Source: Hymenobacter sp. BT188
GTDB taxonomy: Bacteria > Bacteroidota > Bacteroidia > Cytophagales > Hymenobacteraceae
Length of the DNA: 64,000 nucleotides
Assembly (NCBI RefSeq): GCF_014333585.1
Contig: NZ_JACSCW010000003.1
Span: forward strand, 1-64,000
Direction of reading: 5' to 3'
Under the pieces are notes generated by a model that saw only the letters and a list, made by a program, of their open reading frames with translations, did no database searches and was not told the DNA's origin. Shown one piece after another: positions 21,850-28,555 of the stretch; within the stretch, counting starts at the first letter, position 1, and the number at the start of each line of letters is the position of its first letter. A program made the translations under genes and the position numbers.

Positions 21850-21960
21850 AACCGTTTGGCTAGCTAAACCGTTAGCGATGAAAACTGAATGACATTTACT
21901 ACCTTTTTGGTGGGTTTGTGCTGGAGTTCGGTTTATCCATACTTTCTACCAAGCCATTTT

Positions 21961-23160
21961 ATGCGCTTCCTCTATTCACTGCTGACTCTGAGTGTGTTGG
22001 CAGCCCCCAGCGCCTTCGCGCAAGTAACTCCCACAACCGATTCAACCACTACTACTGCTCCAGCGCCCGGCCTTAGTCAGCCGCGCAAACTAGCCAGCGA
22101 CAAGCCCAGCTTTATTCCGGTGCCGATAGCGTTTTATCAGCAGGAAACCGGCTTTGCAGCCGGCGCAGCCATTTTGCCAGTGTGGCGCTTTGGCACCGAT
22201 ACCACGGTTCGCAAGTCTAATGCCCGCCTGATTGCTTGGTTTAGCCAGGAAAAGCAAAGTACTATTCAGCTTACCCACACCATCTTTACGCCCGGCGAAA
22301 AGCTGTTCTTATCAGGTGAGTTGAGCCGCTACGATCAGAAGCTGTTTTACTACGGTATTGGCAACGACAACAGCGAGGACGCCGAGTCGGATCTGGAGTT
22401 TAAGCTGATTGTGTTCGACGAAAAAGTAATGCCGCGCATCGCCCCCAATCTGTTCGTGGGCCTGCGCTACCGCCTCACCAGCCTAACCGATATATCAGCT
22501 TCTGATGGCGCCGAAGATGGTGGAGCCAATTACTTTCTGCGTGACCCGCGCATCGACCCACGCGAGCGGGAAAACACCGTTAGCTCCGGCATAGGCCCAT
22601 CCTTGCTTTATGATGGTCGCGACAACGTGCTGGCCACCTATAGCGGCAACTTTATAGATGCCCACGTGCTGGTAAATGGTGGCGCCTTGGGTAGCGATTT
22701 TAAGTTTACACGCTACCAGCTGGATGCTCGCCACTTTCAGCCTTTGTTTGGCTCCAACAATACGATTCTGGCCCTACAATACCTCACCCAACTCCATACC
22801 GGCGACGTGCCGTTTCGGGAAATGGGCGGTCTGGGGGCCAATTTGGGCGGTGCTATCTACAACAACGCCAACCTGATGCGTGGTCTGTACGAGACCCGCT
22901 TCCGCGACCGGCAGATGATGACTTTCCAAGCGGAGATTCGTCAAAAACTGTTCTGGCGCATCGACGCTGCCGCTTTCCTGAGCGCCGGGCAGGTTGGGTA
23001 TAAGCTTTCTGATTACACCTTCGATGGCACCAAGTTCGCTGGCGGCGGCGGCCTGCGCTTCCGCTTCAATCGTCGCGACCGCCTCAACGTCCGCCTCGAT
23101 TATGCGGGCGGCACTGATACGGCACCGAGCATTTACTTCGCAGTGGGCGAAGCGTTCTAA
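21961..23160 (+). CDS. BamA/TamA-like outer-membrane barrel protein, copy 1
   Basis: This 399-residue protein has a signal peptide (MRFLYSLLTLSVLAAPSAF). The mature part is beta-rich, with PVWRFGTDTTVRKSNARLIAW, GPSLLYDGRDNVL and a final IYFAVGEAF; the terminal Phe marks an outer-membrane barrel. It is shorter than BamA and lacks POTRA domains, so it is a barrel-only surface-antigen relative. A paralogue follows in tandem. The ATG at 21961 is chosen because the signal peptide starts there. Confidence 0.85.
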   Translation: MRFLYSLLTLSVLAAPSAFAQVTPTTDSTTTTAPAPGLSQPRKLASDKPSFIPVPIAFYQQETGFAAGAAILPVWRFGTDTTVRKSNARLIAWFSQEKQSTIQLTHTIFTPGEKLFLSGELSRYDQKLFYYGIGNDNSEDAESDLEFKLIVFDEKVMPRIAPNLFVGLRYRLTSLTDISASDGAEDGGANYFLRDPRIDPRERENTVSSGIGPSLLYDGRDNVLATYSGNFIDAHVLVNGGALGSDFKFTRYQLDARHFQPLFGSNNTILALQYLTQLHTGDVPFREMGGLGANLGGAIYNNANLMRGLYETRFRDRQMMTFQAEIRQKLFWRIDAAAFLSAGQVGYKLSDYTFDGTKFAGGGGLRFRFNRRDRLNVRLDYAGGTDTAPSIYFAVGEAF

Positions 23161-23214: not shown

Positions 23215-23360
23215 ATGTGCCTTATAGATTTAATTAAAAGCAAAGTGCTACCACCCAATGAAGCTCGGCATAGAGTAAGTTTCGGCGCGAAATCCAGATT
23301 ATTAATCCAACGCGTATCTTCCGACGCTGCGGCTTGCTCTGGCCGTTTTTTGTTCTGGAT

Positions 23361-24527
23361 ATGCGCTTTTTCTACGTCTGTTTGCTGGTCAGTCTTATTA
23401 CCAGTTCCGCCACCGCCCAACCTACACCGGTGGCTCCCGATTCGGTTGTGGCCACCACTGAAAAAGCCCCCCAGCCCAAGCGCGACAAGCCTAGCTTCAT
23501 ACCTTTCCCCATCATTTTCTCTCAACCCGAAACCGGCCTTGGCTATGGAGCCGCCGTGTTACCGGTGTGGCGCTTCGGCTCCGATACCACCGTGCGCAAG
23601 TCCAACGCTCGCCTTATCGCTTGGCGCACCCAGAAGAAGCAGAGCTTGGTACAACTCTCCCAAACCATTTTTACGCCCGGCGAGCGGTTTTTGCTTAATG
23701 GCGAGCTAAGCTATTACTACAAGTTTCCCATTAACTACTACGGCTTTGGCCCTGCTACCGACATTGATGATGAGTCAGTTATTGAGTATAAGGTGTTGAT
23801 TTTCAATCAGCGTGTACTCAAGAAAATAGCTCCCAACCTGTTTGTGGGCCTCCAATACCGTCTCACCGACCTGCGCGATATACAGGTGAATGCGGATATC
23901 AACGAGGGCAGCCCCACGGAGGAGCGCCCTAGCCGCCTGTATGAGCGCGATGCGCGCGAACGGCAGAACACGTTGAACTCTGGCCTCGGCCCATCCATCC
24001 TCTACGATGGGCGCGACAATGTGCTTAGCACGTTCCAGGGCAACTATTTGGAACTGAGCAGCTATTTCAACGGCGGCTTATTAAACAGCGACTTTCGCTT
24101 TAGCCGCTTCCTACTCGATGCTCGTCATTTTCAACCTCTCACCAAGGATAATAAAACCATTCTGGCTACCCAACTCGTGGGGCAGTTTCATGTCGGCCGC
24201 GTGCCATTCCGCGAGCTTGCCAACTTAGGAGGTGAGAAGATTTTGCGAGGCTATTATGAAGGCCGCTACCGTGACCGGCAACTAGTAGCCTTGCAGGCCG
24301 AAGTACGCCGTCATTTGTTTTGGCGCTTTAATGGGGTCGTATTTGGTGGCGTGGGGCAGGTCGGAAATACGCTTTCCTCATTCGACGAAGGCGGCCTAAA
24401 GGCAACGGGTGGGGCAGGGGTGCGCTTTCAGTTCAATCGCCAAGACCGCCTCAACGTCCGCTTCGATTATGGTGTAGGCAGTGGTGGCTCTTCCGGCTTC
24501 TATTTTAGCATTGGTGAGGCATTTTAA
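23361..24527 (+). CDS. BamA/TamA-like outer-membrane barrel protein, copy 2
   Basis: This 388-residue paralogue of the preceding gene shares the segments VLPVWRFGSDTTVRKSNARL, FTPGERF, GPSILYDGRDNVLSTF and the end FYFSIGEAF. The signal peptide ends near TSSATAQ. The two copies differ mainly in loops (an insertion NEGSPTEERPSRLYER here), as expected of surface-exposed regions after an old tandem duplication. It carries a GGGGGGC motif at 23467, in the linker behind the signal peptide. The function is unknown. Confidence 0.85.
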   Translation: MRFFYVCLLVSLITSSATAQPTPVAPDSVVATTEKAPQPKRDKPSFIPFPIIFSQPETGLGYGAAVLPVWRFGSDTTVRKSNARLIAWRTQKKQSLVQLSQTIFTPGERFLLNGELSYYYKFPINYYGFGPATDIDDESVIEYKVLIFNQRVLKKIAPNLFVGLQYRLTDLRDIQVNADINEGSPTEERPSRLYERDARERQNTLNSGLGPSILYDGRDNVLSTFQGNYLELSSYFNGGLLNSDFRFSRFLLDARHFQPLTKDNKTILATQLVGQFHVGRVPFRELANLGGEKILRGYYEGRYRDRQLVALQAEVRRHLFWRFNGVVFGGVGQVGNTLSSFDEGGLKATGGAGVRFQFNRQDRLNVRFDYGVGSGGSSGFYFSIGEAF

Positions 24528-24661: not shown

Positions 24662-25870
24662 ATGGAGCACAGTTCACCCGCCCGTTTTCACGCCGCCCAA
24701 GAGGCCACAGCCGCTCCTCCACTCATCCGGCTAGTAGCGGTGCCACCCACGTCTGAGCTATTCGTCTCGGTTATTATTCCGGCCAAAGACGAAGCGGAAA
24801 ACCTGCCTTTGGCCTTGGCAGCGTTGGCAGACCAAATTGATTTGCAAGGCCGGCCCCTGCCGATGCGCAGCTATGAGGTTATTGTGCTGGCCAATAACTG
24901 CCACGACCAGACTGCAGCCGTAGCGCGGGCTTTTGCCCGGCTCCATCCCCAGTTTAACCTGCACGTAGTCACCGTAACGCTGCCACCGGCTCAAGCGCAC
25001 GTGGGAGGCGCCCGTCGCCTGCTCATGGATGAAGCTTGCCACCGGCTGGAGGCCGTAGGGCAGCCAATGGGCCTAATTGCCAGCACCGACGCTGATACGC
25101 AAGTGAGTAAGACCTGGCTTGCGGCTATGATGGCCGAAGCCGCTGTCGGAGCCGAAGCAGTTGGGGGCCGTATTCTGACTACGCCTTCCGCAAGCCTTGA
25201 AGCCTCAGTACGCCGCTATCACTTGCGCGATGCTTCCTATCAGCTATTACGCACCCAGTTGGAGCATTTGCTTGATCCTGATGCGGCTGACCCTTGGCCG
25301 CGCCACCATCAGCACTTCGGCGCAAGCTTAGCGCTTACGGCTCGGGCGTACCGCCGCGTGGGCGGGCTGCCAGCTGTTAATTTTTTGGAAGATGAAGCCC
25401 TGGTGCGGGCCCTGCGCCGCCACGATATCAGCGTGCGCCACAGCCCGCAGGTGCGCGTGTTTACTTCTGATCGGCAGGATGGGCGGGTGGACGTGGGCCT
25501 TTCGTGGCAGCTGCGCGTGTGGGCCACGATGAGCGCAGAGCAGCATGAGCCCCTAGTTGAAAGCGGCTCCTACTTATTTACGCTATGGCAGGCCCGGCAA
25601 GCGTTACGCACTCATTGGCAGGCTAGCCGCACTAGTTTGCCCGCCGCTATTGGAAATCACGGCTTTAGCAATGAGTTGGCAACTACGCTCCACGTGCCGG
25701 TAGTTGGGTTGATAAAAGCGTTTTATCGGGTCTCCACCTTCGGAGAGCTATGGGAATGGGTGCAGATGCAGCAACACAAAACAGCACGCTGGACTCGCCG
25801 TTGGCCTTTGGTCCCCTTGAGCCAGGCCCGCATTGAGCTACGGCAGCTTATTGGGCAGCTGGGGGGCTAA
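24662..25870 (+). CDS. Family 2 glycosyltransferase
   Basis: This 402-residue GT-A fold enzyme has the nucleotide-sugar motif SVIIPAKDEAENLPLAL (about residues 36-52), an acidic metal-binding patch STDADTQ and the acceptor-side FLEDEALVRALRR. No membrane helix is obvious, so it is not a processive synthase. It faces the methyltransferase/PIG-L/acyl-CoA dehydrogenase genes and its stop overlaps the methyltransferase stop by 4 bp. Its last Gly-Gly codons and stop fall inside a GGGGGGC motif. It is likely part of one small glycoconjugate pathway with those genes. Confidence 0.88.
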   Translation: MEHSSPARFHAAQEATAAPPLIRLVAVPPTSELFVSVIIPAKDEAENLPLALAALADQIDLQGRPLPMRSYEVIVLANNCHDQTAAVARAFARLHPQFNLHVVTVTLPPAQAHVGGARRLLMDEACHRLEAVGQPMGLIASTDADTQVSKTWLAAMMAEAAVGAEAVGGRILTTPSASLEASVRRYHLRDASYQLLRTQLEHLLDPDAADPWPRHHQHFGASLALTARAYRRVGGLPAVNFLEDEALVRALRRHDISVRHSPQVRVFTSDRQDGRVDVGLSWQLRVWATMSAEQHEPLVESGSYLFTLWQARQALRTHWQASRTSLPAAIGNHGFSNELATTLHVPVVGLIKAFYRVSTFGELWEWVQMQQHKTARWTRRWPLVPLSQARIELRQLIGQLGG

Positions 25871-26466
25871 ATTTTCTCCAGCAAATCCAGCCGGTACTGC
25901 TCGTGGCGCTGGCCGTGTAGATGGTGCAAGGGGCCATTATTCGAGGATTTTTGCAGAAAGAAAGCGTGTACCTCATCTCCTGTGAGTGGGTAATCATGCA
26001 CAGGTGGAGTCCAATGCACAAGCAATAATTGCCCCCCAGACGCTAAGCCAGCCACTATTTGGTCGGTGGCACGTGTCAGATCAGCTGATGACCAGTAGTA
26101 GCCGACTTCGGATACCACAATTAAATCGAACATGGACGGCGCTGGAAATTCTTCGGGTACACGCAGCAGCCGAAACTCTACCTGCGGCAAGTGCGCGCAC
26201 CGCTGGCGGGCACGTAGCAAGGGCGCTTCCGCAACATCTACCGCCAACAAATGCCCACATCGAGCCGCCAACTGTTCGGTGAGCACTCCCAAAGAGCAGC
26301 CAATTTCAAAGGCCCGCGCGTATTGCGAATGGGGCAGAGCAGCTAGCGTTGTAGCGTATTTCTCCCGCTCGTAAGTGCTAGTTTCAAATCCCCACGGGTC
26401 TTCGTTGGCCCGATACACGTCGTCGAAGTAGGCTGGGGGCAGGGTATTAGGCTGATTTGGGTTCAT
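25867..26466 (-). CDS. NodS-like SAM-dependent methyltransferase
   Basis: This 199-residue class I methyltransferase has PWGFETSTYEREKYATTL near the N-terminus, as in NodS-type proteins, followed by SAM motif I FEIGCSLGVLTEQLA (about residues 54-68). NodS N-methylates the deacetylated sugar of Nod factors; here the neighbour is a PIG-L deacetylase that could expose such an amine. The start overlaps the PIG-L stop in an ATGA junction. Substrate assignment is inference from context. Confidence 0.85.
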   Translation of the reverse strand: MNPNQPNTLPPAYFDDVYRANEDPWGFETSTYEREKYATTLAALPHSQYARAFEIGCSLGVLTEQLAARCGHLLAVDVAEAPLLRARQRCAHLPQVEFRLLRVPEEFPAPSMFDLIVVSEVGYYWSSADLTRATDQIVAGLASGGQLLLVHWTPPVHDYPLTGDEVHAFFLQKSSNNGPLHHLHGQRHEQYRLDLLEKI

Positions 26467-27227
26467 AGCAATGCAGAACTATTCTCCGATTTGAATTCGA
26501 GATAGACTTCAAATGGCTGGGCAAAATGTGCCAGCATAGAAGGCGAAAGCTGAAAGCCAGTGGGGTCGTCGTCAATCAGATCGGTAAGCTGGGAACGGTG
26601 GGCAGCTATGGCTTGCTGTTTTTGATATAGGACTGAAGTGATGTCCAGACGCCAGCCGGCTACCTCACCCGGTCGGGGCAAATCGGTCGGCTTGGCGCGC
26701 TCCCATGCCCATACTACGTATTCTAAGAGGCGAGGTGGCGTGGCTAGTTGAGCTAAAGCGGCCTGCAGGAGCTGACTAGTAGCGCGGTGGTCGGGGTGCG
26801 GGTCGCGCCGCCAGGGGGCCAGTACGGTAGTGGGAGAGAATTGACTGATACGCATCAATAGCTGCTCCGCGGCTGCTTCAAAGCCTGCTGCGCCCGCAGT
26901 TGGTATGTTCCCATCGGCCAAGCCCAAGTAGTGCGGAGCCGTTGTGATACCCAAGGCAACTAACGCTGCCTCAAACTCCGCTTCCCGTAACTGCCGACGA
27001 GCCGCCGGCGGGTATTTCTGCGAATTGGGGTGCGACATGGTGCCATCCGTAACTAGAATGGCCATAACCGGCACTTGGGCTTGGCGCAAAAGGGCCAGCA
27101 AGCCGCCGCAACCCAAGGATTCATCATCGGGGTGGGGGGCAATAACTATTGTTGAACCGAGTTGGGGGGCAAATTCTGCCGGGCGCAGGGGCAAGTCGGC
27201 AAAAGAGAACGGTGAGATTTCGAGCAT
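26463..27227 (-). CDS. PIG-L (LmbE-like) N-acetyl-sugar deacetylase
   Basis: This zinc hydrolase of about 254 residues has the family motif APHPDDESLGCGGLL (about residues 28-42) and a second ligand set in RDPHPDHRATS. PIG-L enzymes remove acetyl from GlcNAc-containing lipids or glycosides. The ATG at 27227 is chosen; a TTG at 27260 would overlap the upstream gene. It is translationally coupled to the NodS-like gene (4-bp overlap). Two GGGGGGC motifs lie 30 bp apart at 27134 and 27164, one across the codons of the zinc motif. Confidence 0.9.
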   Translation of the reverse strand: MLEISPFSFADLPLRPAEFAPQLGSTIVIAPHPDDESLGCGGLLALLRQAQVPVMAILVTDGTMSHPNSQKYPPAARRQLREAEFEAALVALGITTAPHYLGLADGNIPTAGAAGFEAAAEQLLMRISQFSPTTVLAPWRRDPHPDHRATSQLLQAALAQLATPPRLLEYVVWAWERAKPTDLPRPGEVAGWRLDITSVLYQKQQAIAAHRSQLTDLIDDDPTGFQLSPSMLAHFAQPFEVYLEFKSENSSALL

Positions 27228-27250
27228 ATGCGAAGCGGCGACCCGCGCAA

Positions 27251-28423
27251 CTAGCGCCAAAGCCGGTGAGCGGGTTCCGTTTGAGCTAACGCAAAACGGC
27301 CGGCATCAGCTATAGCCGCGTCGGGGGCGGGCTGGCGCAGATAGTGAGTCAGGTCGCGGTGAAGGCGTTCAAAGGGCTCAGGACGAAGCAGACCACGAGC
27401 ACCCACGCAGCGCTCCGCTATTTGCAGCACCCGCAGGCAGATGTCTTCAATGGCCGTACGTACCAAGTTGGCGTACGCCACGGTAGCTGTGGCGTCGAGG
27501 GAAGCCGTAGCGCGAGCAGCATGGTCAGCGGCGCCGCGCAGCCACAGATTGCCGCCTTCTATAAGCCCTGCCAACTCGCCTAGGCGCATTTGCTGATAGG
27601 GGTCATCAGTGCGGTTAAGTTCCTGTAAAAAGCGTCTGGTCTCGTTGAAAACCGCCTCAGCCGCGCCTAGCTGCACTGCCGCAAACCGAATGGCGCCCCC
27701 ACTGAAATCGGGCTGCTGATAATAGTTTCCGGGCTGGCCCACCAAATCTTCTGTACTGATTTCCAGTCCGGTCAAATCGACCCGAAAGCTGGCAGTGGCC
27801 CGCATGCCCAGCGGCTGCCAGAAGCTAGCGTCGAGCGTGGGGGGCATTTCGTCGGTTGGCAGAATAAACATCTGCCAGCCACCATCGGGCAAAGCACCGG
27901 TAATGAGGGGGCGCGTCACGTGGCCCGCACCCGAGCCAAACGTTTTGCTGCCTACCAAACGAAAATGCCCCCCAGCCTGCGGCTCTAGGCGCACGCCATC
28001 ATTGGCCTGCGTATTCCAGACGCCAAATAGGTGGCCGGCGTGGGCATCTTCTGCCCAGCGTCCGACCTGTTTGGGTTGGGCGTAGCGCTGCATCAATTGC
28101 AACGCGTTCACATGGCCTTCATACACGCGCCCAACGGCTAAGTTGCCGCGGCCGATATGCTTCAGGGTTCTGAGTAATGTAAGGGTGTGTAGAGGCAAGT
28201 GCAGATTGGCGCCACCAAGCGCTTCGCTTAGAGGCGCCGTGAGTAGGTTTGCTGCGCGCAGCCAAGTGAATTCTGTCACCGGAAAGCCGCCTTCCTGATC
28301 CGACGCTGACGCCTGTGCTGCCAAGCGGGCCGCTAATTCGGCCGCAGCTTCCTCGGGTGCTAGTGAGCCAGCCGGAGCCGCAGCAACTGGCAAAATACGC
28401 TCTGTAACCTGTTCAGCTAGCAT
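27251..28423 (-). CDS. Acyl-CoA dehydrogenase-like flavoprotein
   Basis: This 390-residue protein has the three-part acyl-CoA dehydrogenase fold: an N-terminal helical part, a middle beta domain (HLFGVWNTQANDG, SKTFGSGAGHVTRPLI) and a C-terminal helical bundle (RCVGARGLLRPEPFERLHRDL). It is much less conserved than beta-oxidation enzymes and may act on an acyl or amino-sugar substrate of the adjacent pathway. It is the first gene of the minus-strand set, 23 bp before the PIG-L gene. An upstream TTG was rejected in favour of ATG 28423. Confidence 0.85.
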   Translation of the reverse strand: MLAEQVTERILPVAAAPAGSLAPEEAAAELAARLAAQASASDQEGGFPVTEFTWLRAANLLTAPLSEALGGANLHLPLHTLTLLRTLKHIGRGNLAVGRVYEGHVNALQLMQRYAQPKQVGRWAEDAHAGHLFGVWNTQANDGVRLEPQAGGHFRLVGSKTFGSGAGHVTRPLITGALPDGGWQMFILPTDEMPPTLDASFWQPLGMRATASFRVDLTGLEISTEDLVGQPGNYYQQPDFSGGAIRFAAVQLGAAEAVFNETRRFLQELNRTDDPYQQMRLGELAGLIEGGNLWLRGAADHAARATASLDATATVAYANLVRTAIEDICLRVLQIAERCVGARGLLRPEPFERLHRDLTHYLRQPAPDAAIADAGRFALAQTEPAHRLWR

Positions 28424-28555
28424 ACACAACAGTAAAGTAGAGTTAGCTCAACTGTTTTAGGCTCGTTTAGGTTTGGTATATGTTGAAAAAAAGGTAGTTA
28501 TGAGAAGCCAGTACTTCTATAAAAGGGTGGTATCATAATTCCCTACCCGAAAGAA

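Follow-up and report, generated by a model that had tools for sequence, protein, structure and literature searches.

What four neighbouring genes of Hymenobacter sp. BT188 make together, and whether they belong together at all, is the question raised by positions 24,662 to 28,423 of the 64,000-nucleotide stretch analysed here (assembly GCF_014333585.1, contig NZ_JACSCW010000003.1, positions 1 to 64,000; hereafter the window). The genes encode a glycosyltransferase (GT), a methyltransferase (MT) resembling the rhizobial protein NodS, a deacetylase, and a flavoprotein with the fold of acyl-CoA dehydrogenases (ACAD-like). An earlier interpretation made from the nucleotide sequence and its translations (the sequence-only reading) had likened them to the NodC, NodB and NodS steps of rhizobia and proposed a modified glycolipid or small glycoside as the product. 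The analysis described below shows that the four genes form a conserved unit and that deacetylases of two families replace each other within it, and suggests that the unit may serve to make a small amino-sugar glycoside.

The four genes and their arrangement

All four reading frames are present, and each of the window proteins scores above the gathering cut-off of its Pfam family (given in brackets):

24662..25870, plus strand: GT2 (GT-A fold) glycosyltransferase, 402 amino acids; PF00535, 39.7 bits (23.3)
25867..26466, minus strand: NodS-like class I S-adenosylmethionine-dependent methyltransferase, 199 amino acids; PF05401, 64.8 bits (24)
26463..27227, minus strand: PIG-L N-deacetylase, ATG at 27227, frame opens at 27260; PF02585, 90.4 bits (28.2)
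27251..28423, minus strand: ACAD-like flavoprotein, ATG at 28423, frame opens at 28429; PF08028, 40.3 bits (22.7)

The GT and MT genes overlap by 4 bp (25867-25870), as do the MT and PIG-L genes (26463-26466), and a 23-bp gap (27228-27250) separates the PIG-L and ACAD-like genes. The earlier description of four genes packed end to end is accurate with respect to these overlaps and the gap, but the genes do not constitute a single run of four: the ACAD-like, PIG-L and MT genes form a minus-strand group, and the GT gene is on the plus strand, tail to tail with the MT gene. Because these two genes are convergent, no single operon can hold more than three of them. In the 64-kb window a profile of each family matches just one gene, and these are the four genes listed.

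Conservation of the genes as a set

Conservation as a set had been named beforehand as the refutation test for the proposed pathway. Genomes were scanned with one motif of the NodS-like family, and the best 80 of at least 588 confirmed places were used; a gene was counted as a member if it reached 60 bits against one of the four family profiles and lay no more than 6 kb from the MT gene. ACAD-like genes were found at 79 of these 80 loci, PIG-L genes at 68, GT genes at 67 and all four genes at 58, with several of the loci stopping at contig edges. When Hymenobacter was excluded, the corresponding counts among the best 80 were 53/54, 42/54, 43/54 and 34/54. The record titles assign the loci to Bacteroidota, Cyanobacteriota, Pseudomonadota, Actinomycetota and Verrucomicrobiota; plasmid records, from which loci were hand-picked from hit lists (10 of the 30 and 10 of the 60 rows listed), add Deinococcota, giving six phyla in which the set occurs as a unit.

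Since the 80 loci are best hits, even samples from two phyla, anchored on the NodS-like gene alone, were taken as well. At E 1e-38 this gene was present in at least 32 of 296 Actinomycetota genomes and at least 33 of 398 Pseudomonadota genomes, counts that are lower bounds because at most 10 and 8 candidates per genome, respectively, were scored. ACAD-like genes were found at 31 of the 33 actinomycete loci, GT genes at 29 and PIG-L genes at 11; the 34 Pseudomonadota loci contained 31, 25 and 26 of these genes, respectively, and all four genes at 23 loci. Twenty control stretches of equal length, taken from the same contigs at a distance of 100 kb in 20 of the sampled genomes (11 actinomycete, 9 Pseudomonadota), contained no match of 60 bits or more to any of the four profiles. 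The four genes form a conserved unit, and the proposal survived the test that had been set for it.

Within the genus, the ACAD-like gene is present in 108 of 120 genomes at E 1e-60 (the BT188 genome counted); the family is patchily distributed across Bacteroidota, where the window protein as query found it in 6 of 296 genomes at 1e-20. A unit that occurs in six phyla and whose ACAD-like gene is so common in its genus should make a product of general use. Full-text searches of open papers returned no title or abstract opening that describes the four-gene set, nor do passages of PMC6963936, which concerns NodB-like proteins in cyanobacteria. The gene set is widespread and, as far as such searches show, undescribed.

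Arrangement is more variable than membership. The GT and MT genes are on opposite strands at 54 of 67 genome loci and share a strand at 13; they also share one at all 29 actinomycete loci that have the GT gene. PIG-L and MT are fused as one protein in six Lewinella/Saprospiraceae loci (L049, L063, L066, L069, L073 and L085). Fusion calls in L074/L201, L209 and L249 were not counted, nor was an apparent GT-ACAD fusion in Methylobacterium (L009), whose linker resembles a shifted frame. A short-chain dehydrogenase/reductase (SDR) gene, the commonest extra gene (8 loci), was rejected as a further shared partner, as its relatives are present in the controls (2 of 20) as well as in the samples (1 of 34 and 4 of 33 loci).

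Exchange of PIG-L and CE4 deacetylases

The window deacetylase is assigned to the PIG-L family by its PF02585 score together with its conserved HxDDE and HxDH motifs. The residues of these motifs, which form the metal site of PIG-L deacetylases, are invariant in 13 of 13 aligned sequences. The closest curated and solved relatives carry the names of small-glycoside and diacetylchitobiose deacetylases.

The sequence-only reading had suggested that PIG-L stands in for NodB, the type of deacetylase used by rhizobia in making signals to legumes. The actinomycete loci support this. Twenty of the 33 encode a CE4 polysaccharide deacetylase, 11 encode a PIG-L protein and none encodes both; the two with neither are L205, where the contig begins 302 bases before the MT gene, and L216. 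All but two of the 20 CE4-type loci (L197 and L206) have a recognisable ACAD-like gene as well, and no relatives of this CE4 protein were detected in the 34 Pseudomonadota loci or the 20 controls. At E 1e-12, 18 of 19 CE4-type genomes contain no PIG-L of this subfamily genome-wide, and neither do the two genomes with neither deacetylase at the locus. PIG-L and CE4 proteins replace each other across actinomycete loci. NodB was the top NCBIfam model for all five CE4 proteins scanned, with scores of 109-134 bits that are below its cut-off of 240; the scan took 5 of 21 CE4 loci, and L188, whose range contained a stop, was left out.

In the MT tree described below, the MTs of CE4-type loci (19, plus that of L205) form a single clade with support of 1.0, and the exchange therefore looks like one event. 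The exchange is the strongest new line of evidence obtained, and it supports a scheme in which an amino sugar would be N-deacetylated and subsequently N-methylated, the logic on which the sequence-only reading was built, and it provides a direct handle on the chemistry of the cassette. In Methylobacterium genomes without PIG-L at the locus, PIG-L is encoded elsewhere in 10 of 10, and in 7 of the 10 short stretches it adjoins another NodS-like MT gene. PIG-L is likewise encoded elsewhere in genomes G751 and G874, and about 11 kb away in G861.

Relationship to NodS and to Nod factor synthesis

The window MT reaches a NodS-type level in Pfam (PF05401, 64.8 bits) but scores only 82.1 bits against the NodS equivalog NF041650, for which the cut-off is 300. 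Its nearest solved chain is 4isc (profile E 2.5e-59), a protein of the same family that is named only 'Methyltransferase', is presumably from Pseudomonas syringae, and has to our knowledge no assigned function; rhizobial NodS (3ofj) is next (9.1e-31). A tree of 146 MT rows was constructed, in which four Hymenobacter sequences were kept and 19 of the 20 CE4-type MTs are included; L011 and L218 (both duplicates), L107-L183 (for the most part a second stretch from a locus that was represented) and sequences shorter than 120 amino acids were omitted. After midpoint rooting, two rhizobial NodS proteins fall away from the set, in a group with L250 and a trifunctional protein of Rhizobium (0.805); no ACAD-like or PIG-L gene lies near L250. 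NodS is therefore a relative of the set MTs and not a member.

The trifunctional protein, so named in its Rhizobium leguminosarum record (L256:7378-10380, 1000 amino acids), combines the same three activities, GT2, NodS-like MT and CE4-type, in one polypeptide. It differs from the set in that its locus is polysaccharide-like and has no ACAD-like gene in the annotation shown, and its MT domain is the one that groups with NodS.

The window GT is assigned to GT2 by its PF00535 score and by its DxD (D143, D145) and ED (E243-D244) motifs, which are invariant in 37 aligned sequences (alignment A6: 36 of 39 thinned rows plus the window protein). Foldseek searches with an AlphaFold model of the GT (predicted local distance difference test score, pLDDT, 92.9) gave weak, partial matches to solved GT2 enzymes only and pointed to no donor. 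NodC, which the sequence-only reading had invoked for sugar transfer, does not appear when the GT is compared with NCBIfam at E 0.001, and no NodA hit was obtained in the four set genes or seven neighbouring genes, to which that scan was limited. Since NodC is not recognised, the cassette, as judged from its sequences, is not a Nod factor pathway. The proposed order of N-deacetylation and N-methylation is the same as that of rhizobial NodB and NodS, the window MT matches NodS both in Pfam and among solved structures, and many actinomycete sets have a NodB-related CE4 enzyme. In contrast, the window set has PIG-L and not the CE4 enzyme NodB, the actinomycete CE4 proteins scanned are themselves under the NodB cut-off, and the set has an added flavoprotein. 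The likeness to NodS and NodB would nevertheless put two Nod factor steps into a wider, non-symbiotic setting.

The ACAD-fold flavoprotein

The ACAD fold of the fourth protein is certain. The glutamate of the EGT motif is the catalytic residue of acyl-CoA dehydrogenases, and the window protein has LRQ(P) at this position, whereas EGT is kept in 4 of 4 acyl-CoA dehydrogenases from this genome. Q366 is invariant in 32 aligned ACAD-like sequences (alignment A5: all 31 thinned rows plus the window protein). In isovaleryl-CoA dehydrogenase the catalytic glutamate is at an alternative position, and the EGT comparison aligned paralogues from the same genome only, with no enzyme of that type among them. 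Because the EGT glutamate is missing in this alignment, acyl-CoA dehydrogenase chemistry was rejected as the leading explanation.

When a profile of the 32 sequences was compared with solved chains, the best matches were DszC (5.3e-32), TdsC (1.6e-28) and MsuC (5.3e-27), followed by 5z8t and 5gj7 at 1e-24, whose titles are 'Flavin-containing monooxygenase' and 'putative Acyl-CoA dehydrogenase'. The best acyl-CoA dehydrogenase chain matched at 3.9e-22 and others more weakly, and the amino-sugar N-oxygenases KijD3, nitrososynthase and DnmZ matched at 2e-19 to 3e-16. Foldseek rows 1-15 for an AlphaFold model (pLDDT 92) were all DszC or TdsC. The ACAD-like protein thus has the fold of the DszC-type monooxygenases and amino-sugar N-oxygenases, among which are its best profile matches, at about 17-23 percent identity in the structural alignments listed. 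Profile and Foldseek comparisons favour the DszC-type group over acyl-CoA dehydrogenases, whereas the structural Z-scores and the single-sequence search given below do not; with moderate confidence, we read the protein as probably a flavin monooxygenase. A pyridine-nucleotide reductase gene related to that of Rubrobacter is present in 18 of 33 actinomycete loci versus 1 of 20 controls, and its product may be the electron source for the flavoprotein. A reductase gene of this kind was seen inside the set only in actinomycete loci, which distinguishes the set from the DszC-type monooxygenases.

A proposed pathway and its alternatives

We consider it somewhat better than an even bet that the four genes are a conserved biosynthetic cassette whose product is a small amino-sugar glycoside. 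Transfer of an N-acetylated sugar onto an acceptor by the GT2 enzyme would come first; PIG-L or, in many actinomycetes, the NodB-related CE4 enzyme would strip the acetyl group, and the NodS-like enzyme would N-methylate the freed amine. The last step would be an oxidation by the ACAD-fold flavoprotein, which would most likely work as a flavin monooxygenase on the methylated nitrogen or on the aglycone. The active-site motifs are present or absent in the alignments as described above; the order of the steps, the sugar, the acceptor, the oxygenation, the identity of the product and a possible role in stress survival are inferred.

Several observations weigh against this scheme. Nothing pins the sugar to glucosamine or the action of the MT to nitrogen. 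In five genomes that have the MT and ACAD-like genes (G1045, G978, G424, G423 and G567), a search at E 1e-12 gave no PIG-L of this subfamily and the locus encodes no CE4 protein; G978 has a 28-bit fragment at the locus, and G423 is a metagenome-assembled genome. Deacetylation would thus be common but not universal, as far as the profiles see. No GT was found within 6 kb at 9 of the 34 Pseudomonadota loci, three of which have the MT alone, and among the 10 plasmid records chosen by their ACAD-like gene there are two (L101 and L104) in which no such MT lies close by, so lone ACAD-like relatives exist. With respect to the flavoprotein, VIA Z values for oxygenases and dehydrogenases are nearly tied (40.6 vs 39.6), a single-sequence search ranks the acyl-CoA dehydrogenase 4u83 (2.1e-14) above TdsC (3.3e-12), and the 34 Pseudomonadota loci yielded no relative of the reductase seen in actinomycetes. 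The absence of a family from the VIA list was given no weight.

The alternative that survives best, although we judge it unlikely, is tailoring of a surface or extracellular polysaccharide, in which an N-acetylglucosamine branch added to a polymer by the GT would undergo deacetylation, N-methylation and oxidation. Polymers are frequent substrates of CE4 enzymes, the GT, NodS-like MT and CE4 fusion lies in a polysaccharide-like Rhizobium locus, extra GTs or glf are found beside some sets, and an ABC-transporter-like gene is near the set in six Lewinella-type loci and L067. However, the neighbours examined, which are annotated in part, include no recognised polymerase or flippase, and the names of the closest PIG-L relatives refer to small glycosides and diacetylchitobiose.

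Distinctly less probable is the lipid version of the sequence-only reading, according to which PIG-L and the MT would modify the sugar head group of a glycolipid and the ACAD-like protein, as a true acyl-CoA or acyl-ACP dehydrogenase, would desaturate or oxidise the acyl chain. The certain ACAD fold and the first rank of an acyl-CoA dehydrogenase in the single-sequence search are compatible with this model, as are an AMP-binding (CoA-ligase-like) gene near the lone ACAD-like gene of L101 and an acyl-CoA thioesterase gene near the set in L016. The replacement of the EGT glutamate and the invariance of Q366 argue against it, and no acyltransferase or CoA ligase was found among the nine flanking window genes scanned; acyl-chain chemistry is accordingly not supported. 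Finally, a set that makes, recycles or protects a low-molecular-weight thiol of the bacillithiol type is very improbable and was rejected: the bacillithiol deacetylases BshB2 and BshB1 provide the closest NCBIfam models of the window PIG-L and share its family and small-glycoside deacetylation, but its scores of 66.9 and 61.7 bits are far under their curated cut-offs (TIGR04000, 195.25; TIGR04001, 182.5), a separate and distinct BshB1 (290 bits) is encoded elsewhere in the genome, and none of the four genes encodes a BshC-type ligase.

An extension of the amino-sugar glycoside scheme that we regard as a long shot is that the product would be an N-methylated and then N-oxidised amino sugar (a hydroxylamine or nitrone), acting as a natural spin trap that guards DNA or proteins when cells are oxidatively stressed or desiccated. 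In that case the combination of a deacetylase with NodS in legume signalling would be a specialised relative of a much wider stress pathway.

Stress-related and other genes near the set

Several of the host genera are known for radiation or desiccation tolerance. Ku was encoded within the approximately 16.5-kb stretch at 4 of 34 Pseudomonadota loci (L218, L221, L222 and L235; expected 0.097, Poisson P 3e-6) and catalase at 3 of 34 (L221, L227 and L232; expected 0.34, P 0.005), both families having been picked after neighbours elsewhere had been viewed. L218 is the same locus as L093, a source of the idea, and L222 contains only the MT gene of the four, leaving L221 and L235 as the only fresh full sets with Ku. 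Neither Ku nor catalase occurred at any of the 33 actinomycete loci, and only 9 of the 20 control stretches are from Pseudomonadota. Catalase, Ku/LigD or general stress genes are near 6 of the 20 hand-picked plasmid loci. The excess of Ku and catalase over the gene-density expectation near Pseudomonadota sets involves few loci and is a weak hint that the product is possibly stress-related. In one Methylobacterium locus a gene for a stand-alone LigD 3'-phosphoesterase domain (L071:6332-6832) lies between the GT and ACAD-like genes, and relatives of this gene are present in seven further Methylobacterium loci.

The nine genes flanking the set in the window are ordinary: a KdsC-type phosphatase, a cold-shock-like protein, which is the only stress gene among them, a prenyltransferase-like protein, two Omp85-superfamily proteins, purH, mreB, mreC and PBP2. 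The Omp85-superfamily genes (21889-23160 and 23334-24527) encode two similar outer-membrane proteins in tandem directly upstream of the GT gene. No Rfam RNA element matched at gathering score between 20000 and 34000; promoter-like sites at the locus were no different from shuffles, and terminator-like sites were fewer.

In two Deinococcus records (L007 and L102) the ACAD-like domain is preceded by a further domain. A GT was ruled out as the fusion partner, which is a glycoside-hydrolase-like domain with weak GH1/GH35/GH42/GH53 matches; Dyadobacter, Spirosoma and L006 have relatives close to their sets. The coordinates noted for these genes are L007:190-1410, L102:4705-5925 and L077:6023-7243. 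The Deinococcus gobiensis set is followed by a second GT and UDP-galactopyranose mutase (L102:9772-12007), and Spirosoma and Dyadobacter have relatives of this second GT close to their sets. In Gloeothece (L104), a divergent ACAD-like gene is accompanied by genes annotated as MT, SDR and FMN reductase, with no PIG-L or GT2 in the stretch, an arrangement that perhaps represents a related pathway. Two candidate exporters were noted: a major facilitator superfamily gene near the set in Bradyrhizobium (L013:2565-3737) and in six Methylobacterium loci, and the ABC-transporter-like gene of the Lewinella-type loci and L067 (L063:10778-12652).

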